From: Bolinopsis microptera
Lineage: Eukaryota > Ctenophora > Tentaculata > Lobata > Bolinopsidae
DNA length: 60,000 bases
Reading direction: 5' to 3'
Assembly: GCF_026151205.1 (NCBI RefSeq)
Contig: NC_087081.1
Span: 3,913,246-3,973,245 of the forward strand
The notes under the pieces were generated by a model, which saw only the letters and a list, made by a program, of their open reading frames with translations, ran no database searches and was not told the origin of the DNA. The translations under genes were made by a program, and so were the position numbers. The first letter of the stretch is position 1, and the number at the start of each line of letters is the position of its first letter. Of this stretch, positions 4,276-50,000 are shown one piece after another.

Positions 4276-4972
4276 CCACCAAAATTCCTCATCTTTCTTC
4301 CACCGCGTAATTAGTAATACATTTCAGGCTTTTTGAATAGTGCCACATGCTGTAAAACGAAAAAAACTATTTCAACGTTTAGTCGGTACTAATCTGATGG
4401 AAAATATCGAAAAAATACTTATTTTATTGTTTATGTGCAAATAGAGTATAAAGGTAAACCGTACGATTCTGAATTAACAAACTCTACCACAGCCTCACAG
4501 ACTACTATTGTATTTTAACTTTTACGACTACCAGAAAAAGGAAACTTATTTAAGAAAAATTATAGTTCATCTTTTCAATAATAAATTAAAGTATACCACA
4601 TCTTCTAGATAATTAATGCTCAAATTAAAGCGTATTAAATTAGCCACACATTTTGTACATCTCCAAATCTTGTATAGACATCAATTCACTGTGAGGCTAT
4701 ACGGGCAAAATTTATAAACAAAAAATTCCACAGTAAGTCACAATATTGTAGAATGCAGACTGTAGTTGATCATGATATTTTATAAGGGAAGATCAATATT
4801 CTTTCGGTATCAAAAGTTTCAATGGTCAGAATATCGACCTAAAACGTCCAACAAATCTCACTTTTCAACATGCACAATCCTGGAGAACGTTCCAGAAAAT
4901 GTCCTAGAAACAATTCTAGAATCCAGTAGGTGTCATCTGAAAGTCTAAATCAAAACTCCGGTGTAGTTAGAG

Positions 4973-5041
4973 TCACGGAGGTGGGATAATTGTGTTCCCA
5001 TTTCCAGCTAGAGTAGACTCTCCTATTACTTCCAGTACTGC
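4973..5041 (-). CDS. PCM1: PCM1 last coding exon with stop
   Basis: 69 nt including TGA at 4973-4975. Acceptor tttcag, phase 0. The protein ends NGNTIIPPP. A possible AATAAA on this strand lies at 4423-4428, implying a 3' UTR of about 550 nt; this is weak evidence. Confidence 0.87.
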   Translation of the reverse strand, partial: AVLEVIGESTLAGNGNTIIPPP

Positions 5042-8000
5042 CTGAAACAACTGGTATTTTTTGTTTCTGCGGATGTAACAAACAATATATAGTATTTACA
5101 ACTTTACAAATTCAATTGTGTTTCTTTATTAGTGGGAAAAGAGATTTTTCAATCTTAAATTATAACACTTTCTTGTCCAATTTAAATCGAACAGTTTAAA
5201 CATCAGCATGAAACTGTATTTATTTTACTCCTAAATAATTTAATCAATGAAGCCCACGAACCTGAGTGTCCAAATTATCAGGACCATTAGCAGCAGCGTT
5301 CTCAGGCTTATCCCCCACTCCACTATCAGTGGGTAGAAGCGGGGTAGCTAGAGGACTAGAGCCCACTACTGCATCTCTGTAACTGGGGACTACGCCCGGG
5401 ATGTTCAGTCTGCAAGGCAGGTCCTCTACCTGATAGGTGGAATGTTGAGGGTGAGTTAGGAATGTTGGATTAAGATTATATTTCTACACATTAAGATAAC
5501 AGTGAAAAGTTGCAGTTGAGGAGAACGGATAAGAGGGATCCCTGCTAAACATGTGGTCTATTAAGAGATGAGGGAAATCATAAGTAACCTCAGTTACTGC
5601 ACCCCTATATAAAGCAAACCCCGGAATCAGGGTTTACTGTATAATATCGGGGTTTTACTGTAACTAGGAGTTTTACTGTAACTAGGAGTTTTACTGTAAC
5701 TAGGGGTTATACTGTAACTAGGGGTTATACAGTAACTAGGGGTTTTACTGTAACTAGGGGTTTCACTGTAACTAGGGGTTTTACTTTTATCTATTATAAT
5801 TATATAATAGAGAAACTAACGGTGAGAATGTTGTCAGAGCTAAGTTCTTTAACAGGAACGTCATCATTACTCTCATCTTCAGTAACAGGTAGTTCTACAA
5901 TGTCCGACATGTCTCCTCCGTCACTGAACAGCTCTCCTGGGTCAGTAGTTATATTATGAAACATTGCTCTGGTGACGTCACGTGGTGATTGGTGACGTCA
6001 CGTGGTGCTTGATGACGTAACGTGAATAATGGCTTTATTTTATAAAGTACAACTCAATATAGTTAATTGGCAGGAACCCTGATGTCACAACCATGTCACA
6101 ACCATGTCACAACCATGTCACAACCATGTCACAGTCATGTTACAACCATGTCACAACCATGTCACAACCATGACCGGGGGAGACTGTTAGGGGAGCTAAC
6201 TTATGATGATAATTTCCTGAAATTATCTCTCTCTTGACTCACCTGTTTCACTAAATCTGGGTTGTACAGGTTCGTCTTCCTCGACTATCATCAACTCCTC
6301 CTCTTCATCGTCCTCCTCGTCCTGTGACACGTGTTAACTTAATAATCATAATACATATTACAATAACTTTAGGTGAACTCTTTGTCAATCACTAGTATAT
6401 ATCCAGTCACGCGTAAAAACAAACAACTAACAATAAAATTTGCTTAAATTCTAGCAATATAATTTACCTGCGTGTTACTAACTGCGCACTCCACCTCGTT
6501 CCCAACAGTGTCAGAGTACTCCAGCTCAGGGTCGTCTGACTCGTCATATCCAACCCTGAAGAAGTGTGACGTCATAACAAAGTGTGATGTCATAAAGTGT
6601 GACGTCATAACAAAGTGTGATGTCATAAAGTGTGACGTCATAACAAAGTGTGATGTCATAAAGTGTGACGTCATAACAAAGTGTGATGTCATAAAGTGTG
6701 ACGTCATATCAAAGTGTGATGTCATAACAAAGTGTGACGTCATAACAAAGTGTGCCGTCATAACAAAGTGTGACGTCATAACTAAGTGTGATGTCATAAA
6801 GTGTGACGTAATGACAAAGTGTGACGTAATAACTAAGTGTGACGTCATAACTAAGTGTGATGTCATAAAGTGTGACGTAATAACAAAGTGTGACGTCATA
6901 ACTAAGTGTGATGTCATAAAGTGTGACGTAATAACAAAGTCCTGCTGAGTGGGGTGTGCACTAATCCGGTAGAAGCCAGGAACCTAGCCCGAATGTACTG
7001 CTGAGTGGGGGAGTGTACTAACCCGGTAGAAGCCAGGAACCTAGCCCGAATGTACTGCTGAGTGGGGGAGTGTACTAACCCGGTAGAAGCCAGGAACCTA
7101 GCCCGAATGTCCTGCTGAGTGGGGGTGTGTACTAACCCGGTAGAAGCCAGGAACCTAGCCCGAATGTAGTACTGAGTGGGGGAGTGTACTAACCCGGTAG
7201 AAGCCAGGAACCTAGCCCGAATGTACTGCTGAGTGGGGGAGTGTACTAACCCGGTAGAAGCCAGGAACCTAGCCCGAATGTACTGCTGAGTGGGGGAGTG
7301 TACTAACCCGGTAGAAGCCAGGAACCTAGCCCGAATGTCCTGCTGAGTGGGGGTGTGTACTAACCCGGTAGAAGCCAGGAACCTAGCCCGAATGTACTGC
7401 TGAGTGGGGGAGTGTACTAACCCGGTAGAAGCCAGGATCCTAGCCCGAATGTACTGCGGAGTGGGGGTGTGTACTAACCCGGTAGAAGCCAGGAACCTAG
7501 CCCGAATGTACTGCTGAGTGGGGGAGTGTACTAACCCGGTAGAAGCCAGAAACCTAGCCCGAATGTACTGCGGAGTGGGGGTGTGTACTAACCCGGTAGA
7601 AGCTAGGAACCTAGCCCGAATGTAGTACTGAGTGGGGGAGTGTACTAACCCGGTAGAAGCCAGGAACCTAGCCCGAATGTCCTGCTGAGTGGGGGAGTGT
7701 ACTAACCCGGTAGAAGCCAGGAACCTAGCCCGAATGTCCTGCGGAGTGGGGGTGTGTCCGTTCTCCAGCACCAGCTCTTCCTCGTCTCCTGATTCCTCCT
7801 CAACACTCTCCTCATCCTCGTCTACTATAATGTGAGATGCGTTCACGTCTTGGAACAATACCTGGACAAAAATATGCTAAATTTTCAGTTGTTTTCCGTG
7901 CTTATAGAATAGGTTGGCTCCTCGTAAGTGTAAGTTTTGCAATATCTTATCGAACTAAATATCTAACCTCACTGAGATCCACAATGTAATATCTTATCGG

Positions 8001-11000
8001 ACTAAACATCTAACCTCACTGAGATCCACAATGTAATATCTTATCGGACCTAAATATCTAACCTCACTGAGATCCACAATGTAATATATTATCGGACTAA
8101 ACATCTAACCTCACTGAGATCCACAATGTAATATCTTATCGAACTAAACATCTAACCTCACTGAGATCCACAATGTAATATCTTATCGGACTAAATATCT
8201 AACCTCACTGAGATCCACAATGTAATATCTTATCGGACTAAATATCTAACCTCACTGAGATCCACAATGTAATATCTTATCGGACTAAATATCTAACCTC
8301 ACTGAGATCCACAATGTAATATCTTATCGGACCTAAATATCTAACCTCACTGAGATCCACAATGTAATATCTTATCGGACTAAACATCTAACCTCACTGA
8401 GATCCACAATGTAATATCTTATCGAACTAAACATCTAACCTCACTGAGATCCACAATGTAATATCTTATCGGACTAAACATCTAACCTCACTGAGATCCA
8501 CAATGTAATATCTTATCGGACTAAATATCTAACCTCACTGAGATCCACAATGTAATATCTTATCGGACTAAATATCTAACCTCACTGAGATCCACAATGT
8601 AATATCTTATCGGACTAAACATCTAACCTCACTGAGATCCACAATGTAATATCTTATCGGACTAAATATCTAACCTCACTGAGATCCACAATGTAATATC
8701 TTATCGGACTAAACATCTAACCTCACTGAGATCCACAATGTAATATCTTATCGGACTAAATATCTAACCTCACTGAGATCCACAGTGTAATATCTTATCG
8801 GACTAAACATCTAACCTCACTGAGATCCACAATGTAATATCTTATCGGACTAAACATCTAACCTCACTGAGATCCACAATGTAATATCTTATCGGACCTA
8901 AATATCTAACCTCGCTGAGATCCACAATGTAATATCTTATCGAACTAAACATCTAACCTCACTGAGATCCACAATGTAATATCTTATCGGACTAAACATC
9001 TAACCTCACTGAGATCCACAATGTAATATCTTATCGGACTAAATATCTAACCTCACTGAGATCCACAATGTAATATCTTATCGACTAAACATCTAACCTC
9101 ACTGAGATCCACAATGTAATATCTTATCGGACTAAACATCTAACCTCACTGAGATCCACAATGTAATATCTTATCGGACTAAATATCTAACCTCACTGAG
9201 ATCCACAATGTAATATCTTATCGGACTAAACATCTAACCTCACTGAGATCCACAATGTAATATCTTATCGGACTAAACATCTAACCTCACTGAGATCCAC
9301 AATGTAATATCTTATCGAACTAAATATCTAACCTCACTGAGATCCACAATGTAATATCTTATCGGACTAAATATCTAACCTCACTGAGATCCACAGTGTA
9401 ATATCTTATCGGACTAAACATCTAACCTCACTGAGATCCACAATGTAATATCTTATCGGACTAAATATCTAACCTCACTGAGATCCACAGTGTAATATCT
9501 TATCGGACTAAATATCTAACCTCACTGAGATCCACAGTGTAATATCTTATCGGACTAAACATCTAACCTCACTGAGATCCACAATGTAATATCTTATCGG
9601 ACTAAATATCTAACCTCACTGAGATCCACAATGTAATATCTTATCGACTAAATATCTAACCTCACTGAGATCCACAATGTAATATCTTATCGGACTAAAT
9701 ATCTAACCTCACTGAGATCCACAATGTAATATCTTATCGGACTAAATATCTAACCTCACTGAGATCCACAATGTAATATCTTATCGGACTAAATATCTAA
9801 CCTCACTGAGATCCACAATGTAATATCTTATCGGACTAAACATCTAACCTCACTGAGATCCACAGTGTAATATCTTATCGGACTAAACATCTAACCTCAC
9901 TGAGATCCACAATGTAATATCTTATCGACTAAACATCTAACCTCACTGAGATCCACAATGTAATATCTTATCGGACTAAATATCTAACCTCACTGAGATC
10001 CACAATGTAATATCTTATCGGACTAAACATCTAACCTCACTGAGATCCACAATGTAATATCTTATCGGACTAAATATCTAACCTCACTGAGATCCACAGT
10101 GTAATATCTTATCGGACTAAACATCTAACCTCACTGAGATCCACAATGTAATATATTATCGGACTAAACATCTAACCTCACTGAGATCCACAATGTAATA
10201 TCTTATCGGACTAAATATCTAACCTCACTGAGATCCACAATGTAATATCTTATCGGACTAAACATCTAACCTCACTGAGATCCACAATGTAATATATTAT
10301 CGGACTAAATATCTAACCTCACTGAGATCCACAGTGTAATATCTTATCGGACTAAATATCTAACCTCACTGAGATCCACAATGTAATATCTTATCGGACT
10401 AAACATCTAACCTCACTGAGATCCACAATGTAATATCTTATCGAACTAAACATCTAACCTCACTGAGATCCACAATGTAATATCTTATCGGACTAAATAT
10501 CTAACCTCACTGAGATCCACAATGTAATATCTTATCGAACTAAATATCTAACCTCACTGAGATCCACAATGTAATATCTTATCGGACTAAACATCTAACC
10601 TCACTGAGATCCACAATGTAATATCTTATCGGACTAAACATCTAACCTCACTGAGATCCACAATGTAATATCTTATCGGACCTAAATATCTAACCTCACT
10701 GAGATCCACAGTGTAATATCTTATCGGACTAAACATCTAACCTCACTGAGATCCACAATGTAATATCTTATCGGACTAAATATCTAACCTCACTGAGATC
10801 CACAATGTAATATCTTATCGGACTAAATATCTAACCTCACTGAGATCCACAGTGTAATATCTTATCGGACTAAACATCTAACCTCACTGAGATCCACAAT
10901 GTAATATCTTATCGGACTAAATATCTAACCTCACTGAGATCCACAGTGTAATATCTTATCGGACTAAACATCTAACCTCACTGAGATCCACAGTGTAATA

Positions 11001-14000
11001 TCTTATCGGACTAAACATCTAACCTCACTGAGATCCACAATGTAATATTTTATCGGACTAAATATCTAACCTCACTGAGATCCACAATGTAATATCTTAT
11101 CGGACTAAACATCTAACCTCACTGAGATCCACAGTGTAATATCTTATCGGACTAAACATCTAACCTCACTGAGATCCACAATGTAATATCTTATCGGACT
11201 AAATATCTAACCTCACTGAGATCCACAGTGTAATATCTTATCGGACTAAACATCTAACCTCACTGAGATCCACAATGTAATATCTTATCGGACTAAATAT
11301 CTAACCTCACTGAGATCCACAATGTAATATCTTATCGGACTAAACATCTAACCTCACTGAGATCCACAATGTAATATCTTATCGGACCTAAATATCTAAC
11401 CTCACTGAGATCCACAGTGTAATATCTTATCGGACTAAACATCTAACCTCACTGAGATCCACAATGTAATATCTTATCGGACTAAATATCTAACCTCACT
11501 GAGATCCACAATGTAATATCTTATCGGACTAAATATCTAACCTCACTGAGATCCACAATGTAATATCTTATCGGACTAAATATCTAACCTCACTGAGATC
11601 CACAGTGTAATATCTTATCGGACTAAATATCTAACCTCACTGAGATCCACAATGTAATATCTTATCGGACTAAACATCTAACCTCACTGAGATCCACAAT
11701 GTAATATCTTATCGAACTAAACATCTAACCTCACTGAGATCCACAATGTAATATCTTATCGGACTAAATATCTAACCTCACTGAGATCCACAATGTAATA
11801 TCTTATCGAACTAAACATCTAACCTCACTGAGATTCACAGTGTAATATCTTATCGGACCTAAATATCTAACCTCACTGAGATTCACAGTGTAATATCTTA
11901 TCGGACCTAAACATCTAACCTCACTGAGATCCACAATGTAATATCTTATCGAACTAAACATCTAACCTCACTGAGATCCACAATGTAATATCTTATCGGA
12001 CTAAACATCTAACCTCACTGAGATCCACAATGTAATATCTTATCGGACCTAAATATCTAACCTCACTGAGATCCACAATGTAATATCTTATCGGACTAAA
12101 CATCTAACCTCAAGCTCACTGAGATCCACAATGTAATATCTTATCGAACTAAATATCTAACCTCACTGAGATCCACAGTGTAATATCTTATCGGACTAAA
12201 TATCTAACCTCACTGAGATCCACAATGTAATATCTTATCGGACTAAATATCTAACCTCACTGAGATCCACAATGTAATATCTTATCGAACTAAACATCTA
12301 ACCTCACTGAGATCCACAATGTAATATCTTATCGAACTAAACATCTAACCTCACTGAGATCCACAATGTAATATCTTATCGAACTAAACATCTAACCTCA
12401 CTGAGATCCACAATGTAATATCTTATCGGACCTAAATATCTAACCTCACTGAGATCCACAATGTAATATCTTATCGAACTAAATATCTAACCTCAATGAG
12501 ATCCACAATGTAATATCTTATCGGACTAAATATCTAACCTCACTGAGATCCACAATGTAATATCTTATCGGACTAAACATCTAACCTCACTGAGATCCAC
12601 AATGTAATATCTTATCGGACCTAAAGATCTAACCTCACTGAGATCCACAATGTAATATCTTATCGAACTAAACATCTAACCTCACTGAGATCCACAGTGT
12701 AATATCTTATCGGACTAAATATCTAACCTCACTGAGATCCACAATGTAATATCTTATCGGACTAAATATCTAACCTCACTGAGATCCACAATGTAATATC
12801 TTATCGGACTAAATATCTAACCTCACTGAGATCCACAATGTAATATCTTATCGGACTAAATATCTAACCTCACTGAGATCCACAATGTAATATCTTATCG
12901 AACTAAACATCTAACCTCACTGAGATCCACAATGTAATATCTTATCGAACTAAACATCTAACCTCACTGAGATCCACAGTGTAATATCTTATCGGACTAA
13001 ATATCTAACCTCACTGAGATCCACAATGTAATATCTTATCGGACTAAATATCTAACCTCACTGAGATCCACAATGTAATATCTTATCGGACTAAATATCT
13101 AACCTCACTGAGATCCACAATGTAATATCTTATCGAACTAAACATCTAACCTCACTGAGATCCACAATGTAATATCTTATCGGACTAAATATCTAACCTC
13201 ACTGAGATCCACAGTGTGATATCTTATCGAACTAAATATCTAACCTCACTGAGATCCACAATGTAATATCTTATCGAACTAAATATCTAACCTCACTGAG
13301 ATCCACAATGTAATATCTTATCGGACTAAATATCTAACCTCACTGAGATCCACAATGTAATATCTTATCGAACTAAATATCTAACCTCACTGAGATCCAC
13401 AATGTAATATCTTATCGAACTAAATATCTAACCTCACTGAGATCCACAATGTAATATCTTATCGGACTAAATATCTAACCTCACTGAGATCCACAATGTA
13501 ATATCTTATCGGACTAAATATCTAACCTCACTGAGATCCACAATGTAATATCTTATCGGACTAAATATCTAACCTCACTGAGATCCACAATGATGTTGTG
13601 CGCACAGTCCTGTACACTGTCTCCCTCATACTTCTTCATGGCACCCGTCAGATTACTGGCAAAGTTCTCCGAGATCTGTGAAATCAGTGTTACAGATAAG
13701 GAAATAACAGATAAGAAATCAGTGTTATAGATAATAACGGACCTGATCGTTATCAAAGACAGAAGTCTACAGTCTACACGTTATGACGTCACTAAGTCTA
13801 CATGCTATGACATGACGTCACTAAATAATAACGGACCTGATCGTTATCAAAGACAGAAGCAGTGGATCTGATGATGGTAGCGGCTATGTTGAGTTGAATA
13901 GCAGATGATAGGGGTTCGGACATGTGGTCCCGCAGGAGCGGGATAACTTGGATCATAACACGCTTCACCTCCTGTTCCAGGAGCGAGAAGGACGATTCTG

Positions 14001-17000
14001 AGGGAGCAGAGTTTGTTAGGGGTGAACATGTTACAAGTTATGACGTCACTAAGTCTACAGTCTACACGTTATGACGTCACTAAGTCTACAAGTTATGACG
14101 TTACAAAGTTTACAATCGATGACGTCACTAATTCTACAAGTTATGATGTCACTAAGTCTGCAAGTTATGACGTCACTAAGTCTACATATTATGACGTCAC
14201 AAAGTCTACAAGTTATGACGTCACTAAGTCTACAAGTTATGACGTCATTAAGCCTACAAGTTATGACGTCACTAAGTCTACATGTTATGACGTCACAAAG
14301 TCTACAAGTTATGACGTCACTAAGTCTACAAGTTATGACGTCATTAAGCCTACAAGTTATGACGTCACTAAGTCTACATGTTATGACGTCACTAAGTCTA
14401 CATGTTATGACGTCACTAAGTCTACAAGTTATGACGTCACTAAGCCTACAAGTTATGACGTCACTTCAAACCTATCTCGGATGTATCCTCGCACTCGCTA
14501 GTGTTATCAGCAGCACTACTACTCTCACTTCGTCTCACTCCGTACTTTGATATCACCTCCTGCACCACGTCTTCTAGTCGCTCTGAAAATATTTTCTTGT
14601 GTTTAAAACTTCCCCTGCACTGATTCGTTTAAAATATTATTGTTATCGTTTGGGAGCGGGTAGTCAACATGATATTACGTTTCGCGATAAACTGCTATAT
14701 AAACTGCTATATTACGTTGCTTTGGGATTTTCTAGATAAGAAAAAATTAACAGGAAGTTAAACATTTCGCGATAAATCAAAAAATATCATCTGAAAAGAG
14801 GAACTGAACTAAGTACTAAAAACAGTCGACTAAGTGCTAAAAACAGTGAACTAAGTGACAGTAAACTAAATGACACTAATTCACACCAAATAAGTGCTAA
14901 GTGACACTAAGTACTAAGAACTAAGAACTAAGTACTAAGTACTAAGAACTAAGTACTAAGTACTAAGTACTGAGTACTAAGTGCTAAGTGACACTAATTA
15001 CTAAGTACTAAGAACTAAGTACGGCGCACTAAGTAATTACTCACTCTCCATCTCCTCCCTCCTCCTCACATCTGCCAGGTCACTACTCAGGTTAATAGCC
15101 GTGCTACCCAGACTCTCCGAAGCAAAGGGGTGGGAGTTGCTGGTGGATACAGAGCTGAGGTTCTCCACACTCTCCAGGTAGTCGTACTCTGCGTCTTTTA
15201 TCTTACTGGCTTCTCTCTCGTACTCCTGTCAGTAAACGTCAGGTTAGGTGAGGTTAAGAGTGAGGTTAGGTGAGGTTAGGTGAGGTTAGGTGAGGTTAGG
15301 TGAGGTTAGGTGAGGGATATAATGAGAGAGAGAGAGAAAAATAGCTAACGAGGTTGAAGAAGTATGAGTAAATTAGTTTGACAGATGAGGAAATGAGGTT
15401 GAAACGTTGGAGATAACTTCAAACATAGCACAGAAGCGAGAATTACACAAAATGTAGATCACAATCATACAAAAAGGTTTTCAAGATGGCGACAATCAAG
15501 TCGCAAAATAGACTGGGATGAATGATCATATTATTATGTGTTGGTCACAATTTAAGCTCGATTGAGATAAAATATACACGTTCCACTGTTCGAGCACCCT
15601 AAAGTTTCATAACCTATAGATCTATTTGGTTCTTTAAGGGGAAAGTTTCAAAACCTATAGATCAAACGTGACATGTTACCATGGTTACCTATAGATCTAT
15701 TTGGCATGCTACCATGGTTACCTATAGATCTATTTGGCATGCTACCATGGTTACCTATAGATCTATTTGGTTCTTTAAGGGGAAAGTGATCGTTTTTTTA
15801 GAGCTTACATCTCACTGATAGATTTTAGTTTTTCTATAACCATCAAACTTGGCATGTTACCATGGTTACCACGAGTAATTGGAATTCAATCTCATAGTAT
15901 TGGTTGGTTAACAAGTGCTCGAAAAGGGAACTAATTACAATTACCCAGCTCAATTTGCGTACATTATCCACGTCACTGATGATAGAGTTGTTGGAGGGTG
16001 TGGCCTCGCTCGCTGAGAACAAGCTCCAGTTGTTCTCTTTTAGCCACGTCCTATTTGGGGACAATGTGAATGTTTTTATTATTACTAGATTTATATTTGA
16101 CACTTTAGTATGAGCATATTTTTGTTTGATGATAAAGTTCTAGTACTGATACACAGCTTATATTCGCAGAAATTAAGAGAGTGCTTCTTTCCTGTTTCAG
16201 GATAGTAAACAGATATAATATAATCTTGAAACTTTCTTTTGTGAAACTTTAATCCTTACGGGTATCGGCCTTACAAAATGACAGGCCTCACAAAATGACA
16301 GCCCACATAGACCATGCTGTAGCTTAGGTTCCCTATACATTGAACCCTATTCCTTTTACTGTATGAAAGAAAATGCATTAATTAACACTTCCCAAGGAAT
16401 GATAATGACATAGAATCTATATTTCTTACATAAATATGGACGTTTTTGCTGTTCAGTCATTGCCCCGCCTAACTGTTACCCAGAATGGAGACCAAAGTTT
16501 TGAATTTAACCCCAGAAAACCAGGTACTACCATGACTTATGTCAATCAAAGACTACTCTGGTCAAATAAAAAAACTGATTTAGTGACTTTGGTAGAGGAA
16601 ATGACAAAAAAATGACCTAGCCTCACAAAATGACAGTGTTATGCCTCACAAAATGACAGTTTTATTTTATGATACAAAGATGGCATATTTATATTGGATG
16701 CCCCTTGCCTAATTATTGGTATTCTTAAACCCAGTAAGCTCATGATGAGCCTAAATGTGTTTGTTCGATCATCAATTTTGATCAAAATGCCTCACAAAAT
16801 GACACCGAAAAGCCTTACAAAATGACAATGTTTCAGATTGAATTATTTTCATCATCTAAAATGGATCAGAGACAGTCAATACAAGAAGGAGTTAAAAATA
16901 ATCATAATCTGACAGTTAACAATCAAGTAGCATTAAAAAAGTGCAGTTCTGATATCAAAACTTTGATTTCAAACTCTTTGATTTCAAACTCTTTGATTTC

Positions 17001-38000: not shown

Positions 38001-41000
38001 TATGTCCTCATGGGAGTCTGTGTCGTTAAAGGACATGGTCCCCATTTCTACTTGTATACGAGACAGCTGGTCTCTCATCGCCTGCAAAGTTACTGGTTAC
38101 TACCCACACTCAAAAATCCTATCATACTCCTTTATGGATTTTACCTGTTAAAAATTGGCGAAAGATATGGGCGTGGCCGGATCGGGATCAAGACGGTCGA
38201 GTAGGAACTTTTTTGTGGTCAATGAACCTAAGTAATGGATATAAGCACTCTTCGCTAATTAATCGTCACATCTTGAAAATATGACCCTAGTGGTAAACCA
38301 CGCTTCCTGTTACGTTACTAACTTTAAGGCCAGAGGGGGGGGGGGGGGGGGGGGGGGGTAAGGGGTCAAAAACATCGACCAAAATATTATTTTCTTATTC
38401 AATATAATTTTTGATGACAAAAACATTGCAACTATTCACATATTTGTAGCTGCTTAACTTTTTTTAATAATTGAGGTTAACCGACTTTCACAAAATTGAC
38501 TATACAACATTGAGGTTAATAAAATTGAGGTTAATATTTTATTACACTCCATAATTTTTTGTTATTTCGGTCAGCAAATGTTAACTCTAAATTTTAGGTT
38601 CATAATTATCAGAAAAAGTAATATCCAAACGTTATTAAATGAGGTTAACCTCTTTTTTTAGATGTAGCGAGAATAGATCAAATGATAGAGCTATTATTTT
38701 CATCGTTAGTTTACGGTATACACATTTCTAAATAGATGACGTGTTGATTGACTTTCTTTTATCTTGGGAAAATGAAAAAATGAGGTTAACCATCACATTT
38801 TGGTACTGTAGGGAATATACATACGATTCTTGCTTATGTAATGTACCACAATATCGCAGTGAGGTATCTATTGGTATCACAATGCCTACAACTATAATCA
38901 CGTGACAAAGGTGATTTGAACTGACCATATTTTAGTAGAAGATTTTATCCGTAAATCGCTAAAAAATGAGGTTAACCTCTCATTTTTTGAATATCTGACC
39001 AGTAAAATACATGTTAACCTCAAAAACTTAATCGTTACACTGTGCAAATGTTTTACTACATATATAATAACATATTAATAAACCAATCCCAGTGTTATAT
39101 GGTCTAAAGCGAGGTTAACAACCAAATTTTTACTACTTTCGAGCAGTTAGTGTTTACAGGAAGTCTTGGTTAACCTCATTTTTTACAATACAAGGACATT
39201 AACTACTGAAAGTGGCTAAAATCGTTTAGGGGATGGCTAGGTCTGATCAAGCAAACGTTGATAGGTGTATAGAAAGTCCTAACTAACGAACTGTGATACA
39301 TTCCAGTGAATATTCAAAATTTTGAAAACACTAAATTGCATCTATCTCTCACACGGCTGTCATCCGTCCAATCCTATCCTACTGCTGTAGTATATGGATC
39401 AGGGCCACTCAAACGGACTATAACGCGAAGAAACTCAAACGTGTTCAGGCATTGGCACTCAGAATGATGTCTGGTGCCATGCCAAGCACACCTTTTATCG
39501 CATTGAATCACCTCACCGACACTTCTGACATCATACTGTTCCTGCAAGGCGAAGCAGCAAAGGGTGCGGCCAGGCTACAAGCTTATGGCAGCCTCACTCT
39601 TGAAACTATCGCCTTCAGGAAGGGAACTATCAAAAATCATACCACTATCAACAAACAATTCATGGCAGACCTCATTATCCCACCTAGAGCAACGAGAGAC
39701 CTAACAACACCAACCATGATGCTGGGACGGCACTTCACCGTCACAACTCCTGGAGCCGATACCACTGAATATAGAAATTCACTTCAAAACACCATTGACA
39801 ACATTACCAGTGAAACGATCACCTGCTACACTGACGGGTCACTCACAGACTCAGGATGCGGGGCTGGCTATATCATCACAACAGACAACAATAACACCAC
39901 CCTTGAAGAAAGATCATTCAAGCTCCCTGATTATTGCACTGTTTACCAAACAGAGCTCACTGCCATCATTGAAGCTTGCAAATATCTCTCTACCTATACC
40001 AACACACATATCATCATATGGTCTGACAGTCTCTCATCTATACAAGCTATCTCTGCGCTTTCAACGCGGAGTAGAACTACAAGAGACTGTTACGACTCTC
40101 TTAATGCACTCGGATCCAACAACACGCTAGAGATACGATGGATTGCAGCACACATCGGATTGTGGGGGAACGAAAAAGCAGATGAGCTGGCCAAGCTTGG
40201 TACAACCAGTGAATCCACTTTGAAGTGTCCAGTTCCACAATCCTACATCAAGCGTCAAATCGACAACAAAGTCAACAGACTGAATCAGGAAACTTGGTTA
40301 ACTGACGGTCCCAGACACACCAAACTGACACTCGGCCACAAGCATGCCAAAATCATCAAAAACCTCAACACTACACTCAGCAAAAACAGACAAGATTACA
40401 GAACTGCAGCACAGTGTGCCCGCGAGCCCGATTTTCTGCAAAAAGTCAGTATTTTTCTTCAACCAGCCTATTTTCAATTTAAAACTACCCTATCTAACCT
40501 AAAATTGCATGAGAAATCGTTTAAAGGGGTTTTCAAGATGATTAGAAGGATTTTTGACCTCATATATTGATTTAACCTGATTTTTGGTGTAAAATTACAT
40601 TTTTTTGCCGTTTTTTTGCCATATTTTTGAACAAATTACAAAAATAAGTGACAAATTCACTTTGATGAGCATCCATAATTTACGCTATCTGTAAGTATAG
40701 GACATTTAGAGTAATCTCAGAAAAATTTACAGTGTGATATTGTGGCATGATTTTTTTATGGGCCATCAAAGGTTTAAGATTAGACAGAAATTTTGTGAAT
40801 TTTAGGACTTTTTGATTCCATTTTTAGACCATTTTAGCACTTATATCAATTATAAACTACTTCTTTGTGTTTTAAATGGAAAGAGGTTATCAAGAGCTTT
40901 CATTTGATACCTCCATACATGGCTTTTGATCAAAATTCGAATTTTCTTGGACAAAAACAATGTTATTTTGAGCTAAATTGAGTTACGCACTTACAAAATA

Positions 41001-44000
41001 AGGTAATTTAGCCCCAAATTGCTGATATTTTCTTCTTTAAAGCCTTTAAATCACCTCAACAAGTGTTTCCGGACCTTACAATGACCAAAAACACTTAAAA
41101 AGCAATCTTGATTCTCTCAAACAGTTCAGAAATCATTATTTTTGCAATTTAAGGTCTAAAAATGGTAGATTTAGCCCTTTTTTAACTTTAAAGGACCCTA
41201 ATTTCAATAAAATTACCAAAATTTTAGGGCAGTAGCTGAAAATAGTTCCCAAATAGTCATTCTTAGGCATAACCATACCTAAAGGTTACTTTAAAACACA
41301 TGTGGAGACTCTTAAACTGCCCCCATGATTAGTTAAGGGTAAAATAGTGATATCCCCATATTTTGGCAGTCAAATTTTTTGAGGGAGGCTGGGGGTACTT
41401 ATGGCCATGGGAAGGTGTCAGATGACAAATTTGGGTTCCCCATTATGTTTTTTCTGTCAATGTAAGGTATCAGGCATAACAAATAACTTAGTTAATAGTT
41501 CCCAAAACTGGGATCTGGAAGTTGATTCTGCACTTTGGTACCATGCGAACGAAATTTTGTCCTTCAAAAATGATGAAAACATCGAATTTTGCCTGCAAAA
41601 ATCGAAATTTCGTATTTTTAACCCAATTTTTATTGGATCTGGCCCCTAACTCCATATAATAATGATGAAAAACAATGTTTATGGTTTTAGACATGTTTAG
41701 AGATTATTATTCTAGTTTATATGCGACCAATTCATCCATTAATTCTTATCCTATTGAATTTTATTCATAAATTTCATACCAATTTGGTGTATATGATTCA
41801 AGATATCTCAAGAACCAAAAATGATAGCCCCTTAATTCTTTTTTTGTTAGAAAATTCAGATTATTTCTGATCAGATCAGGCTAAACTTATCTGGAAAGCA
41901 AATATCACCCTAAATACTTTTTGCAGCCTCTGGGCACACTGTGTGCAGTTCACCTCATCACGGGTCACTGCGGCTTAAACAAACACCTTCACACCATTTG
42001 CAAATCAAACACCAGTGCTTGTCCTATGTGCGGCGACGGAGAGGAAACTGTCTCACACTTCCTTGGACAGTGTCCAGCTATTGCCCAAATTAGAGGTCAA
42101 TATTTCCAGGACTACTACCTCTCTGTCAATGACATATTCGACAACCAACACATCACCACAATTGTCAATTTCGCAAACCGCACCAAACGCTTAATTGTGC
42201 CGGAAGAGCTGGATCAGACCGGGGTGACTTAAAGTATTATCTCATATGCTGTCTCGTCTCGTTTTACTTTTCCAAACCCAGCTGGCATTTAAGCGTATCA
42301 TTTTGACTCATATTATATCATCTTACACCATCCTCCACCAATCACTCTGATTTCACCGGCAACCTTCCCCAAGGTTGCCACACCCCAGAGGTAGGCAGAG
42401 CATCTCAATGCTATCCTCTCGTGGGCTATCTTGGCCCAGCCTCTCTTAAAAAAAAAAAAAAAAATCTATCTCGAAACACATTTTGTGACTTTCAGTTCCT
42501 TAGTTGAGTAAACCAGCCACCCCCTGATATTGGGATTTGGTACAGTGGTTCCTTGGACAAGTATCTAGATATTAGATGCAGCGATTTTTTTTATTTGACT
42601 CGTTTCTCGAATTATGAGGTTAACCAGCTAAATTTGTCGAATTTTTGACATGGTTAACCTCATAATTCAAGAACCGAGTCAAATTAAAAAAATCGCTGCA
42701 TCATAAATGAGGATAATTGTCCAAGGAACCACTGTACCAAACCTCAAGATCAGGGAGTGGCCGGTTTTCTCAACTAAGGAATCGAAAGGTCAAAAAAGTT
42801 ACAGCCGTTTAAAGATCCAGTTTAACATGTAATTACAGGTAAACCTCAAAATTTAGCGCGCGATATCTCAGGAACGCAAGGTCTGATTTTGATCCGGTTT
42901 TTTTCTTCTTGTTCGTCTCCAGCAACTATTATCAAATATGAGAAAACTAGAAAAGTGCCATTTACCCCCCCCCCCCCCCCCTCTGGCCTTAACTTGTTAA
43001 ACTACAGCTAGGCTCTGAGGCTCTGACAGATTACCCTAACCCTTACGTCGTTAACATCTTCCTCGGCAGTCGTCAGCGAAAGGTTGATCTATATTTCATG
43101 TGGGAATCAGCGTCTAAAAATACGACATTTTATGACTTATGTTCGTTTAAAATACCGAGAGCCATTTTGGAACAATCTCGACAGTCAAATGTAGAGTAAT
43201 TAAGCTGACTTGGTGCAAAATCGTATTTAACAGCACATTATTTATTAGCAGCTACCAAATAGTAGTGCAAAATAGTGGTCAAAATTATAAAACTGCAATT
43301 GTGAGTAGTCATAACCTCAATGCCAAAATTTAAATGACATCGAGGTACCACCTACGCCGGTATGAATTTAAAAATCATAAAAGATTTTATGAAGGAGAAA
43401 ATTTTGAAGTAAAAGTTGCTATCATGACATTTTAGCGCTATCCTGTACTTTCATCACAACCAAGTACTTTACAAGCAACAAGTTACAATTTTAACTAGAA
43501 CTAATTGAAGTTACACAAGAATTCTCTGAAATATACATATTATATATTATACATTTATCACATGCCTTCTCATGCGATATCAAAACTTTCGCCCACGAGG
43601 CTTGCCGAGTTAGCGAAAGTTTCGATATTTCCCGAGGCTTGCCGAGGGTTATATCGACATTTTCAATCACGAGGCTTGCCGAGTTTTGAAAATGTTGATA
43701 TCGCATGAGAAGGCATGTGATTAATGTTTTATCACACTTTCTTTGGAGCCAAATTTGGCCGGGAAAGCAGAATTTGATCAAACGTTAGTTATAAATCTCA
43801 CCAAAGCAAAACTAAACATGTCGAACTTATTTATGTTTATAATGTCCAAGCTATATATAGCTCTCGATAAGTTAGTATTTCAGATATTAAAGATACAATA
43901 CGTCAAAATTAGAACCCGCGTTTCACATTTATGACACAGTGAATGCTGTGTGCCGCGCCCAATTTGCTTTCTATTGGTACGTTGTGCATGCGATATTAAT

Positions 44001-47000
44001 GTGTTTTCCGCCTATGGGTCTTGTACTTATGAGTCTAGAATATTCCGCCGCGAGCGCGTTTGATACGTAATTACATCCTGCAAATCAGTCGATGTGAGGT
44101 GATTCTAATACTTTATTTCTATTAGATATTTTTAGAGTCATTAAAACTGTAGATGTATAATGTATAGAACATCCGTTTAAGTGTTGATTATACATCACAG
44201 TCCTTATCGTATAATCTGTATCTGCGATAAGGTGAAAGAATTTCCTGGTTGTTAAATTTGAATAAAGCTGTGGCGCCATGATTGTCTATTTATCAGTCCA
44301 CATTATACACTGCACACCCTAATTTACATCAACAATATTATCGTCCGTCTTGATTCTTGATTGTCTGTTATTTCAGAATGATTTAATCAATGCAACTTGT
44401 AATCGTTGACCTAGAATTTTATCAAGTATTCTGCTTAGTTCTTAGTCAGTATACAATATACATCTTTACTTGCCATATTTGCCATTATTTGCCATTATTT
44501 GGAGCCATATTTGGCCTGGAAAGCAGAATTTGATCAAACGTTAGTTATAAATCTCACCAAAGCAAAACTAGACATGTCGAACTTATTTATGTTTATAATG
44601 TCCAAGCTATATATAGCTCTCGATAAGTTAGTATTTCAGATATTAAAGATACAATATGTGAAATTAGAATCTCGCGTTTCACATTTATGACACAGTGAAT
44701 GCTGTGTGCCGCGCTGAATTTGCTTTGTACTGCTACCTAGTGCATGCGATATTAATGTGTTTTCCGCCTATGGGTCTTGTACTTATGAGTCTAGAATATT
44801 CCGCCGCGAGCGCGTTTGATACGTAATTTAAATTACATCCTGCAAATCAATCGATGTGAGGTGATTCTAATACTTTATTTCTATTAGATATTTTTAGAGT
44901 CATTAAAACTGTAGATGTATAATGTATAGAACATCCGTTTAAGTGTTGATTATACATCACAGTCCTTATCGTATAATCTGTATCTGCGATAAGGTGAAAG
45001 AATTTCCTGGTTGTTAAATTTGAATAGAGCTGTGGGGTCATAATTAGTGTCTATTTATCAGTCCACATTATACACTACACTCCCTAATTTACATCAACAA
45101 TATTATCGTCCGTCTTGATTCTTGATTGTCTGTTATTTCAGAATGATTTAATGCAACTTGTAATCGTTGACTTAGAATTTTATCGAGTATTCTGCTTAGT
45201 TCTTAGTCAGTATTCATCTTTACTTGCCATTATTTGCCATTATCTGCTTCGAGCTAGAAATTATCTGAACTGGAAATTATCAGAACATTTGTAATATTCA
45301 AATGTATCTCTTCAACATTTTAGAACGCAGTACCTACTCCACCAGCCTATAACCACCCTGGTCATGGCCAGGTAGTTCACCCGTACTGTTACCAATATTG
45401 AATTGTCTAAAGAATGGCAGCACATTAATCATCGGACCTGTTTGCCCCAGTGCCCAGACTAATTTATAACCAGATTAGCTGATTAAGTTACGTCATTCGT
45501 CCCTTGATATATTTATATAGATAATATATTTTATAGGATGTTTTTATTGCACTTATTTGCACTAACTAAAATTCAGTTAAAACTAGTCCTGGGATAGAAT
45601 TTTCGCTCTTTATTGTACAGAATCTATAAGTCTCTTTATCAGTCTGTTTATAGATCAGCCACGAATTTCGCAAGCTAATCTAGGCGAAACCGGTTTGGAA
45701 AATGGAAAAGCCAAGTATAATTTCTGCACAATTTCTATATGGAATATGGCTCAAAGAAGGGATCAGAGGGGGTTAAAATTCAGGTCTGAAATGGCTGAAA
45801 TCTGGCTTTGTTTTGTGTGTTTTCTTCCTTCGAATAGATCAAATATCGTTTATGTCTTTACTACTTTTTGTGAGGGTGACTGTAGTTTGTTCTGACACTT
45901 CCTTTTTAATTTCAAGTAAGCGATTAAGGAAATTAATGAGCCTGATTGATTGTATCGCTGACAAGTACGAAAACTTTGTGCAACTTTCAAGTCTGCTTGT
46001 AAACTTTGATCTCGTTTTCAGTAACCTTAAGTCGCTTGAAACTCGTACAAACCAGGGAGTTTTTACTTTGTTTCATCATCCGAAGCCTAATTAGGTTTTG
46101 AACTATGAAGTGCAGTAAAAAAACAACAGCTTGAAAAAGTTTTACAACAAAAAATTGTATTTTGCTTAACACATCTCAAACGCAAGGAAATGTTTTTAAA
46201 ACAAGGTATAAATATATATTTTTCCTAAACCTGGAAAGTTCATCTGATCATTGCATTAACGGTCATAGACTACTTCAGGTTGTTGATTTAAATCTTTATT
46301 TAAATCAGTACCTCACAGTAGTAGAACAGTTGTTGAGAGTGGGCTCCTTGTTCCTATTATTATTATATGGGAATATCGGACTCTCTCTGAGCAACTGATT
46401 GATATTTCATGCCCCCGGGTGAGAGCCATTGCTCCCCATTGCACCGGGGCATGTAATATCAATTCTGCTTTCCTGCCTAATTTGGCTCGAAAGTGTGATA
46501 ATAATGTGTTTTCCGCCTATGGGTCTTGTACTTATGAGTCTAGAATATTCCGCCGCGAGCGCGTTTGATACGTAATTACATCCTGCAAATCAATCGATGT
46601 GAGGTGATTCTAATACTTTATTTCTATTAGATATTTTTAGAGTCATTAAAACTGTAGATGTATAATGTATAGAACATCCGTTTAAGTGTTGATTATACAT
46701 CACAGTCCTTATCGTATAATCTGTATCTGCGATGGGGTGAAAGAATTTCCTAGTTCTTGTATTTGAATAGAGCTGTGGGGTCATAATTATAGTGTCTATT
46801 TATCAGTCCACATTATACACTACACTCCCTAATTTACATCAACAATAATATCGTCCGTCTTGATTCTTGATTGTCTGTTATTTCAGAATGATTTAATGCA
46901 ACTTGTTATCGTCGACTTTTTTATTTTATCGAGTATTCTGCTTAGTTCTTAGTCAGTATCCATCTTTACTTGCCATTATTTGCCATTATCTGCTTCGAGC

Positions 47001-50000
47001 TAGAAATTATCTGAACTAGAAATTATCAGAACATTTGTAATATTCAAATGTATCTCTTCAACATTTTAGAACGCAGTACTCCACCAGCCTATAACCACCC
47101 TGGTGACTGGTCATGGCCAGGTAGTTCACCCGTACTGTTACCAATATTGAATTGTCTAAAGAATGGCAGCACATTAATCATCGGACCTGTTTGCCCCAGT
47201 GCCCAGACTAATTTATAACCAGATTAGCTGATTAAGTTACGTCATTCGTCCCTTGATATATTTATATAGATAATATATTTTATAGGATGTTTTTATTGCA
47301 CTTATTTGCACTAACTAAAATTCAGTTAAAACTAGTCCTGGGATAGAATTTTCGCTCTTTATTGTACAGAATCTATAAGTCTCTTTATCAGTCTGTTTAT
47401 AGATCAGCCACGAATTTCGCAAGCTAATCTAGGCGAAACCGGTTTGGAAAATGGAAAAGCCAAGTATAATTTCTGCACAATTTCTATATGGAATATGGCT
47501 CAAAGAAGGGATCAGAGGGGGTTAAAATTCAGGTCTGAAATGGCTGAAATCTGGCTTTGTTTAGTGTGTTTTCTTCCTTCGAATAGATCAAACATCGTTT
47601 CTGTGTCTACTACTTTTTGTGAGGGTGACTGTAGTTTGTTCTGACACTTCCTTTTTAATTTCAAGTAAGCGATTAAGGAAATTAATAAGCCTGATTGATT
47701 GTATCGCTGACAAGTACCAAAACTTTGTGCAACTTTCAAGTCTGCTTGTAAACTTTGATCTCGTTTTCAGTAACCTTAAGTCGCTTGAAACTCGTACAAA
47801 CCAGGGAGTTTTTACTTTGTTCCATCATCCGAAGCCTAATTAGGTTTTGAACTATGAAGTGCAGTAAAAAAGCAACAGCTTGAAAAAGTTTTACAACAAA
47901 AAATTGTATTTTGCTTAACACATCTCAAACGCAAGGAAATGTTTTTAAAACAAGGTATAAATTTATATTTTTCCTAAATTTGGAAAGTTTATCTGATCAT
48001 TGCATTTACGGTCATAGACTACTTCAGGTTATTGATTTAAATCTTTATTTAAATCAGTACCTCACAGTAGTAGAACAGTTGTTGAGAGTGGGCTCTTTGT
48101 TCCTATGGGAATATCGGACTCTCTCTGAGCAACTGATTGATATTTCATGCCCCCGGGTGAGAGCCAGTGCTCCCCATCGGGGCATGTAATATCAAATCTG
48201 CTTTCCTGCCAAATTTGGCTCGAAAGTGTGATAATATACATTATACATATATATAATATGTATTTCTAGAATCAGACACCAGTAATATTATGTGTCACAC
48301 ATGTGTAAACCTGAATGCCGCTCATTTTCTGCTCCTCATTTTCCTTCTGTCTTCTAATCTTCTCTTCAAGTTCTTGTTTATCTCTTAGTCCCTGTAGAAT
48401 ACTTTTCTAAACTAAACTGTAATATTTACAGTTTACTTTTCAGCGAAGTATAATATATAATAAACTATAAACTCTACAGTCTACAATGTATGATACTCTA
48501 CGTAATATCACTCTAAAAGTCTAAATGCAAGATGGCAGGACTACATTTAATCAAAAAGGAAATCTATATCTCGCCACTTTATAGAATGCTACTTAGAGAA
48601 TCTCACAGTATTTAAGAGTTTGTAACTAAAACGAGTTTGAAAGGGGATGTATTTTAAAATAACAGTAAATAATTATAAGATAAGAGAACGTATGTTCTTA
48701 CTTGGTTAATAAATGAATCAAGACCTTGGTCCCCATGTCTTGCATCTGTATACTCCTCAATAATAACTGCTTCTACACCTGTGGTAACTATGGTAACACA
48801 ACATTACTTCTACACCTGTGGTAACTATGGTAACACAACATTACTTCTACACTTGTGGTAACTATGGTAACACAACATTACTTCTACACCTGTGGTAACT
48901 ATGGTAACACACCATTACTTCTACACCTGTGGTAACTATGGTAACACAACATTAATCTATTGCATTATTTGGAACGAAGAAATTCCGACTGAATTCCAAA
49001 TACTTGTACATGATGAAATTTTCACCAATAATCCTGGTTTTCTGTTTCAGTAAAACACACCATACCTGGCGTGCTAATTTCCTCTATAACAATAGGTTTC
49101 TCCTCCTGTTTAGTAGGATCCTTACCTGGTGTGTTAATTTCCTCAATAACAATAGGTTTCTCTTTCTGTTTAGTAGGATCCTTCTTCTTCTTCTGCTTCT
49201 TCTTGTGGTCCTTATTATTGTGTCCCTGCTTATTGTGGCTCTCCCTTTGTTTATTTAGGTAGTTTAGCTCTTCTTCTGTTGGTTGAGCTCTAGCTTGGAA
49301 AGAGTTGATGTTGTCTAGCAGTTCCCTATCTCTTTCTGATGGCTCTAAAAAGAAGGAGACGTTATGTAAAACAGTAACTAAATACATTAAATAATATAAA
49401 TATTAAATAAGCATATCAAAGCTAAATACATTAAATTGATATTTATATGAAATAAATTAAGTAACGAGTATGAAATTACAAGTGCGGTACATCCCGTTGC
49501 TAGGTAACAGAACGAACAGTAAATCTTCTTTACTACAATGTTATAATATGATGGTTCTACAAACATCAAGTTGTACTAAATTATGCTTTAACGTATTACA
49601 AAGAAGGGAGCTCTAAAACAATTTTAGTTTATTTATTTATTTATTTGGTAAAAGCGTTGAGAATAAATAAATAAAATAAATATCTATTTATTTGATTGGT
49701 GTTTTGAAGTACCTCCGAACTGTTCCTGGCTTTTTGTCAGAACACTTTTATCATCTATTAATTCCTTAGATTCACTGTTGCTGTCTTTTAGTAACTGGAA
49801 ACATTAAAGGTGTGATTTGTGATAATTATTATCAGATAATATTTGGTAATAATAATATTGGGTTATAATTTGCTGCACTGGCTAGGATCTTACGTTCCAG
49901 ATCATTCTGGATCTATATTACTAGAACTAGTGTTTATAACTTTGATTTAAGTTAATATATAGGTAGATCTCATTAGGTCTGCAAATAATAAATATCTTAT

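Follow-up and report, generated by a model that had tools for sequence, protein, structure and literature searches.

Minisatellites across exon-intron boundaries of a PCM1-like gene in the ctenophore Bolinopsis microptera

The window analysed here, i.e. the whole stretch of 60,000 nt (contig NC_087081.1, positions 3,913,246 to 3,973,245), carries on its minus strand a gene that is PCM1-like by its predicted protein, the joined exon peptides matching PCM1_C twice (E 2e-22 and 3e-8). Its junctions were set by GT/AG and reading phase. The phase agrees in 20 of the 25 neighbouring exon pairs, and the five phase breaks (a-b, b-c, m-n, r-s, x-y) may conceal missed exons. No PCM1 paralogue was seen in a genome search, a weak one that recovered one exon of the PCM1-like gene itself (exon s, a single weak PCM1_C match with E 5.8e-4, under the curated cut-off). 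No known structured RNA reached its gathering score within the window.

Table 1. The PCM1-like gene and its repeat arrays, duplications and insertions (window coordinates)
Feature	Position	Strand	Remarks
PCM1-like gene, modelled part	4957..52345	(-)	26 exons a-p, r-z, zz (no q); model stops short of 5' end
18/33-nt array	6562..6940	(-)	ends 6 nt before exon x acceptor
57-nt x 14 array	6942..7757	(-)	unit with exon w end and donor ACCGG|GTTAGT
47-nt x 120 array	7941..13592	(-)	unit with exon v end and donor GTGAG|GTTAGA
Two identical 35-nt copies spanning exon u donor	13731-13765, 13825-13859	(-)	flank 59-nt insert 13766-13824
24-nt x 17 array	14059..14465	(-)	begins 6 nt past exon t donor
72-nt x 20 array	17889..23313	(-)	exon r acceptor (TTACAG|GTCTTGAGAAC); split by LINE-like frame into main block 17889-19363 and 3 more copies 23092-23313
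1075-codon LINE-like frame	19666-22893		interrupts 72-nt array
11-nt array	23655..23737	(-)	begins 1 nt inside intron after exon p donor
59-nt x 8 array	26977..27445	(-)	unit with exon k donor GCTAG|GTAGGT
34-nt x 26 array	27538..28442	(-)	unit with exon k acceptor TACAG|GTGACAC
21-nt array	28709..28937	(-)	ends 6 nt before exon j acceptor
84-nt x 7 array	29270..29848	(-)	unit with exon i acceptor and 50 nt of exon i
41-nt x 13 array	37381..37914	(-)	begins 8 nt past exon f donor
37-nt x 5 array	48770..48954	(-)	unit with exon e acceptor
60-nt exonic duplication, exon d	49063..49183	(-)	ends at donor; CCAG|GT ends both copies
76-nt array	50487..50852	(-)	between exons b and c
8/24-nt array	52046..52159	(-)	begins 6 nt past exon a donor; a-b intron is a phase break

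An earlier note on this DNA described repeat units that contain the end of a PCM1 exon joined to its own splice site, and Tandem Repeats Finder recovers the arrays that it named. Copies of junctions were scored as matches of at least 20 of 24 nt (10 exonic plus 14 intronic bases) found within the intron or the 400 nt on each side of it. By this copy test 8 of the 50 junctions in the PCM1-like gene are copied, confirming the named donor and acceptor copies, against 0 of 120 in 60 myosin and dynein introns from the same genome (Fisher 3.7e-5). The copied donors are those of exons k, u, v and w, and the copied acceptors those of exons e, i, k and r; seven lie in arrays, while the eighth is a single donor copy, present at 13731 as the note had it. 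All eight fall within the 20 phase-agreeing introns, and this agreement is compatible with regular splicing of the mRNA. None of the introns bounded by these 50 junctions shows its donor and its acceptor copied together, and no single array in the gene extends to both junctions of an intron. The other supposed single donor copy, at 49066, does end at a donor, but it is part of a duplication inside exon d and stands outside the copy-test count.

Unit profiles revealed no consistent pattern of preservation of the copied splice sites inside the arrays: GT is kept in all 120 copies of the 47-nt array, and the acceptor G is the least-kept position of the 34-nt array (18/26 copies). On the coding strand the 57-nt array reads as one open frame built of 19-codon units, so the donor actually used at exon w may be any of its copies. 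The exonic parts of the units at exons r (GLEN) and v (NIIVDLSE) fall within the PCM1_C matches; at these two the exon is therefore the source, and an array as the supplier of the splice site is rejected. At exon k, with 7 exonic nt, either the exon or the array may have been the source.

Further arrays stop just short of junctions. The five edges that the note had placed within about 10 nt of a junction (at 6562, 14465, 23737, 28709 and 37914) were all recovered, and one more was found at 52159. The arrays at 32684-36445 and 50487-50852 lie far from junctions. For comparison, 87 introns between adjacent profile hits (40 myosin, 47 dynein) were available, with lengths estimated from the profile matches; 30 of them measure 98-171 nt, the first quartile is 150 and the median 259. 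Of these, 62 were taken (38 myosin, and 24 dynein picked around introns longer than 200 nt, with one of 144 nt included), and 60 were used after two myosin introns failed splice mapping; two of the 60 have a common acceptor owing to a duplicated exon match (L029). Arrays occur in 17 of 25 introns of the PCM1-like gene versus 9 of the 60 control introns (Fisher 3.4e-6), and make up 29% of the bases of the window versus 9.3% in a 200-kb random genome sample. This heavy load is peculiar to the PCM1-like gene among the genes examined.

A junction-seeking process should not be invoked until the clustering of arrays at junctions has been set against intron length. Stripped of their arrays, the seven introns with junction arrays measure 7 (intron w-x, which is almost all array), 79, 94-96, 105, 108, 121 and 342 nt, the last after removal of the LINE-like sequence; as only 7-121 nt are left in six of the seven, a random unit of 34-84 nt will often cross a junction. 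Given each intron's array-free length, a conditioning that is itself partly circular, 7 of 22 arrays have junction-containing units against 7.18 expected (P 0.68). On the same basis, arrays that cross a junction or come within 10 nt of one number 13 of 22 against 8.73 expected (P 0.006; with long introns capped, 0.014 at 841 nt and 0.15 at 259 nt), an excess that a uniform array start does not predict. With the choice of intron left free and array-free introns taken in full, junction units number 8 of 23 against 1.63 expected (P 0.0003), or with near edges included 14 of 23 against 2.13, a count reached in 0 of 4000 simulations. Capping introns at 400 nt brings the two expectations to 5.37 (P 0.13) and 7.03 (P 0.003), and capping at 200 nt to 7.68 (P 0.53) and 10.15 (P 0.07). 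The verdict on a junction excess hinges on the treatment of long introns. Among the control arrays, 0 of 11 hold a junction (1.20 expected) versus 7 of 22 in the PCM1-like gene (Fisher 0.07), and 2 of 11 lie at or near one versus 13 of 22 (Fisher 0.03). With the shortness of the introns taken into account, the note's argument that random expansion would seldom hit junctions fails: units holding a junction are at expectation, although arrays that cross or come close to one remain in modest excess.

The junction copies at the exon u donor enclose an insert of which 46 of 59 nt match 14054-14099 in the t-u intron at 95.7%, and the 24-nt array is of the same sequence family. The 72-nt unit, present about 20 times, combines 46 nt that match the 34-nt array of a different intron at 100% in inverted orientation with a 22-nt copy of the junction. 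The 37- and 76-nt arrays have 21 nt in common. Such sharing is to be read against control pairs, one of which, with a score of 64, exceeded every pair in the PCM1-like gene except the best. The 72-nt sequence had 25 reported genome matches, 23 inside the PCM1-like gene and 2 weak ones on C7. A genome-wide mobile element is unsupported for this unit, these two being the outside matches among those reported. For introners, mobile elements that make introns and have many copies spread over many genes, the 72-nt unit was compared with the genome, giving the matches just listed, and the other units with sampled genome pieces. ACCATGGT has 66 occurrences in the window and a single one in 197 kb of random-sample sequence.

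The structure in the PCM1-like gene is already known as the 'mirages' of amphioxus, described as minisatellites spanning the exon-intron boundaries of Adh3, globins, troponin C and PGBD5, with length instability and undisturbed splicing reported (PMC3087553; PMC3902484). In both animals units hold a splice site together with the exon end next to it, donor (5') as well as acceptor (3') boundaries are affected, here at 8 of 50 junctions, many units keep AG/GT, and unit lengths overlap (10-160 nt in the amphioxus reports, 34-84 nt here). The PCM1-like gene differs by gathering eight copied junctions within itself, by copy numbers of up to 120, by units common to more than one intron, and by a junction duplication around an array-derived insert; its host is a ctenophore, and it is known here from the DNA of one assembly. 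If both lancelets and a ctenophore have such arrays, they are not peculiar to lancelets. Minisatellite expansion at boundaries is likewise described for human internal tandem repeats, which alter gene structure and sometimes give new introns (PMC2812944); those were found via recent paralogues, whereas in the PCM1-like gene we saw neither a paralogue nor a sign of a new intron. A minisatellite has also been reported near alternative splicing in C. elegans (PMC4039745).

We consider it probable that these arrays are mirages produced by heavy local turnover in one gene whose short introns are crowded with arrays, with no process that seeks junctions. Calculation shows that 20-90-nt duplications with a random start in an intron this short often span a junction. 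They could survive because the exon end and its splice site would be restored by whichever copy lies next to the exon, while the added DNA stays intronic; those wholly within exons would mostly be removed unless in frame. Later copies could arise by unequal exchange or slippage and then be homogenised, and a role in splicing would be unnecessary. The earlier note had suggested that extra splice sites are tolerated or selected: tolerance fits, since a junction-spanning duplication can presumably leave the spliced mRNA unchanged, but selection is unsupported, the copied sites showing no consistent preservation.

The formation of boundary-spanning minisatellites is called unclear in the amphioxus globin paper (PMC3087553, section 16), and the locus at 13731-13859, an insert between identical donor-junction copies, gives a hint of origin that is possibly new. 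Here a fragment of the neighbouring array would have been inserted with a 35-nt target duplication across the donor, and the 72-nt array is of similar build. Perhaps, then, mirages start when a minisatellite fragment inserts at a staggered break in a neighbouring short intron, the target duplication of 20-35 nt spanning the junction and so hiding the insertion from the mRNA, and the two target copies seed a new array. In this way minisatellites would spread through the gene from one intron to the next, with junctions as safe landing sites. We offer this scheme tentatively and hold it to be rather unlikely. The gene may show several stages together, from the junction repeat around a foreign insert through short arrays to the 120-copy array.

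The earlier note itself proposed that expansion starts at splice junctions through R-loops or paused polymerase, to which co-transcriptional breaks can be added. The copied junctions, absent from the controls, and the at-or-near arrays, in excess over both expectation and controls, speak for such a junction-linked start, as do coding-like flanks at 37.5% of 48 array edges in the gene versus 12.2% of random points. The random 200 kb shows no such excess: of its 95 array edges, scored by codon usage rather than annotated exons, 6 lie beside coding-like sequence, as expected, so that the genome-wide excess anticipated by the note did not appear in this limited sample. Nor does base composition consistently support R-loops, the coding-strand skew of the seven junction arrays being mixed in sign (-0.20 to +0.39). 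With junction-containing units at expectation for intron length and two arrays far from any junction, we regard a junction-linked start as unlikely.

Still less probable, in our estimate, is that junction copies owe their persistence to the AG|GT which most of them contain. A misused copy would act first as acceptor and next as donor, splicing would end by further rounds (dual-specific or recursive sites), and the arrays would be filtered or even favoured for this property. Dual-specific AG|GT sites are described in tandem repeats of human UBC and VCX3A, and dual-specific introns as 8.4-fold enriched in human tandem repeat genes (PMC10809524). The PCM1-like gene resembles them in its tandem units and in the AG|GT of its duplicated junctions. 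With the donor of exon d counted and the acceptor of exon a omitted, 7 of 9 have it versus 16 of the 41 remaining junctions (Fisher P 0.06), or 3 of 4 versus 4 of 21 for acceptors alone (P 0.05, same omission) and 4 of 5 versus 12 of 20 for donors (P 0.62). These numbers are small and the P values borderline, the 57- and 84-nt units have no AG|GT, and the AG is lost in 8 of 26 copies of the 34-nt array. Dual-specific introns as described also sit inside an array, with lengths that are multiples of the unit, while no array here contains both junctions. Intron birth through tandem duplication of exonic sequence containing AGGT (the Rogers model, PMC4974935; 24-nt repeats in fission yeast, PMC3629103) shares with our gene tandem duplications carrying proto-splice sites; the exon d duplication and the nearly all-array intron w-x speak for it. 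Against it, we found no intron copied at both its ends, and six of the seven junction-array introns retain 79-342 nt outside their arrays, which agrees with arrays growing inside introns that are older. The arrays appear to enlarge existing introns, with no new intron position evident, and we hold such births to be highly improbable here.

We finally note the relative of the 72-nt unit on C7. The exon beside it carries VVDLDQT, which we take to be a phosphatase motif, and gave no Pfam match at E 0.001; the C7 array itself has six copies of a 32-nt unit and ends 8 nt from an apparent acceptor.

In seven arrays of the PCM1-like gene the tandem unit contains an exon end together with its own splice site, as the earlier note had read it; a single donor copy in the intron between exons u and v (intron u-v; other introns are named likewise) and a 60-nt duplication in exon d, whose end is the donor of that exon, are further cases. 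Under a fixed copy rule (20/24 nt across the junction), copies are found at 8 of the 50 junctions of the gene, i.e. the donors of exons k, u, v and w and the acceptors of exons e, i, k and r. The same rule gave 0/120 junctions for 60 myosin and dynein introns of the same genome (Fisher P 3.7e-5), in a comparison where one control acceptor entered in duplicate and the dynein introns had been chosen for length above about 200 nt. These junction arrays are real, striking in density and of a known kind: their structure is the same as that of the 'mirages' in amphioxus Adh3, globins, troponin C and PGBD5 (PMC3087553; PMC3902484). In the passages of those papers on mirages, either boundary can be affected, splicing is seemingly undisturbed and the mechanism of formation is stated to be unclear. 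Related ideas appear in work on Rogers-type intron gain (PMC4974935, PMC3629103), boundary repeats in human paralogues (PMC2812944) and dual-specific splice sites in tandem repeats (PMC10809524).

Exons of the gene, which lies on the minus strand, were placed by open frames and GT/AG sites, followed by a reading-phase test in which 20 of 25 adjacent exon pairs agree, about a third being expected by chance; all eight copied junctions lie in introns of consistent phase. Phase breaks at five pairs (a-b, b-c, m-n, r-s and x-y), where exons may have been missed. The PCM1 label is supported by PCM1_C matches of two joined exon peptides (E 2e-22 and 3e-8) and by a genome search with PCM1_C, whose one weak hit lies in exon s of the gene (E 5.8e-4); two other joined exon peptides gave no significant family. 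Exons r and v are the source of their repeat units, because the exonic parts of the units fall within the PCM1_C matches (GLEN of exon r, residues 84-87 in match 48-120; NIIVDLSE of exon v, residues 118-125 in match 43-145). A pyrimidine-rich, acceptor-like stretch in intron p-r, ending CACTGTGTATTACAG (23347-23361), lies upstream of the entire 72-nt array and may be the old acceptor, the array having grown downstream of it. Long open frames in and near the gene are tabulated with their presumed likenesses, that of the two retroelement-like frames being given for the pair.

Long open frames in and near the PCM1-like gene
Feature	Position	Strand	Location	Presumed likeness
1075-codon LINE-like frame	19666-22893	+	between two parts of 72-nt array	LINE endonuclease/reverse transcriptase
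Retroelement-like long open frame	39335-40570	+	intron e-f	retroelement RNase H and reverse transcriptase
Retroelement-like long open frame	53174-54913	+	5' of modelled gene	retroelement RNase H and reverse transcriptase

Whether arrays meet junctions more often than chance allows depends on the question asked, i.e. whether the choice of intron is free or conditioned on, and how long introns are treated. With free choice and array-free introns taken in full, the expectation for 23 arrays is 1.63 junction units, where 8 are seen (P 0.0003), or 2.13 with near edges included, where 14 are seen. The bulk of this uncapped length sits in a few very long introns; capping introns at 400 nt brings the expectation to 5.37 (P 0.13), or 7.03 with near edges (P 0.003), and capping at 200 nt to 7.68 (P 0.53), or 10.15 (P 0.07). 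Conditioned on each array's own intron, junction-containing arrays are at chance (7/22, 7.18 expected, P 0.68), because with so little array-free room a 34-84-nt unit hardly avoids a junction: only 7-121 nt are array-free in six of the seven introns concerned, and 342 nt in the seventh after removal of a LINE-like insert. Lengths of 98-171 nt are found for 30 of the 87 introns of the control families.

The earlier note had held that random expansion would not choose junctions so often. Given intron length, this fails for junction-containing units; there is a modest excess when arrays stopping within 10 nt of a junction are added (13 vs 8.73 expected, conditioned, P 0.006; P 0.014 or 0.15 with long introns capped at 841 or 259 nt). 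Among control arrays, 0/11 contain a junction (1.20 expected) and 2/11 lie at or near one (1.82 expected); against these the PCM1-like gene gives Fisher 0.07 (7/22) and 0.03 (13/22). Short introns and intense local array turnover probably explain most of the junction arrays and leave a residual excess at or near junctions. The comparison with control arrays slightly lowers confidence in this account and slightly raises it for a junction-linked process. The six arrays that end before reaching a junction include four with a gap of exactly 6 nt (6562, 14465, 28709, 52159), as though this class kept clear of the splice-site hexamer.

The PCM1-like gene is unusual in its array load, with arrays in 17/25 introns vs 9/60 in controls (Fisher 3.4e-6). 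A random sample of the same genome (20 pieces of 10 kb) holds 50 arrays on 9.3% of its bases, and the window 25 arrays on 29%. Coding-like flanks were detected by a codon-usage score, with 4,061 codons of myosin and dynein genes as the training set; of 46 true exon-end windows in the PCM1-like gene, 54% score positive. The score is positive at 6.3% of 95 array edges in the random sample vs 6.5% of random points, the corresponding figures being 22.7% of 22 edges vs 14.9% at the myosin/dynein loci (rank test P 0.31) and 37.5% of 48 edges vs 12.2% in the PCM1-like gene (P 0.0006). Edges in the random sample thus score like random points and give no sign of a genome-wide tie of arrays to exons; the general excess that the earlier note had in view is absent there. 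In L029, a stretch of the same genome outside the window, two neighbouring matches (G000:C3:9154012-9154203 and 9154255-9154485) align to one region of the myosin head profile (105-167 and 102-167) and are a possible alternative exon pair.

After a donor-spanning duplication the first exon end and its donor would still be whole, and after an acceptor-spanning one the last acceptor and exon start; judged from sequence, the mRNA would be unchanged provided that the outermost site is used. An AG|GT junction is present at 7/9 duplicated vs 16/41 other junctions (P 0.06), which is only suggestive; with it, a copy used by mistake would remain open to another round of splicing. Comparison of repeat-unit copies found no consistent preservation of splice sites within arrays: GT is kept in 120/120 copies of the 47-nt array, and no position of the 34-nt array is lost more often than the acceptor G (kept in 18/26 copies). 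Units of length divisible by three are those of 57, 72 and 84 nt; only the first is open, the other two having in-frame stops (read by eye).

Intron u-v contains a 59-nt piece (13766-13824) flanked by two identical 35-nt copies, each taking in 23 nt of exon and 12 nt of intron across the donor. Within this piece, 46 nt are 95.7% identical to 14054-14099 of the preceding intron, whose 24-nt array also matches shorter parts of the piece at several places. In the 72-nt unit of intron p-r, 46 nt recur inverted and without a mismatch in the 34-nt array of intron j-k, and a further 22 nt are a copy of the junction, half exonic and half intronic (11 nt each); 21 nt are common to the 37-nt unit of intron d-e and the 76-nt array between exons b and c. 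Measured against 2,208 control pairs, four of the 276 unit pairs score above the 99.9th percentile, yet one control pair scored 64, above every pair in the PCM1-like gene except the best (68). From this anatomy we infer an order of events and a mechanism: array fragments would insert into a neighbouring intron with a target duplication spanning the junction, and tandem growth would follow. Such insertion and the occurrence of shared units in different introns are worth following.

The TTACCATGGTTAC core occurs in a 32-nt x 6 array of another gene, 8 nt from an apparent acceptor (502-711 of L070, a stretch outside the window, G000:C7:8889800-8891000); among the matches listed, this array is the only match of the 72-nt unit outside the PCM1-like gene. 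The coding part of exon l has a 21-nt duplication with a AACCATGG core (26686-26729, minus strand), giving the in-frame repeat RAGNHGD. The palindrome TGACGTCA, core of two intron arrays, recurs in coding DNA of exon o (24035-24216, minus strand), and the window has it at about six times the density of the random sample.
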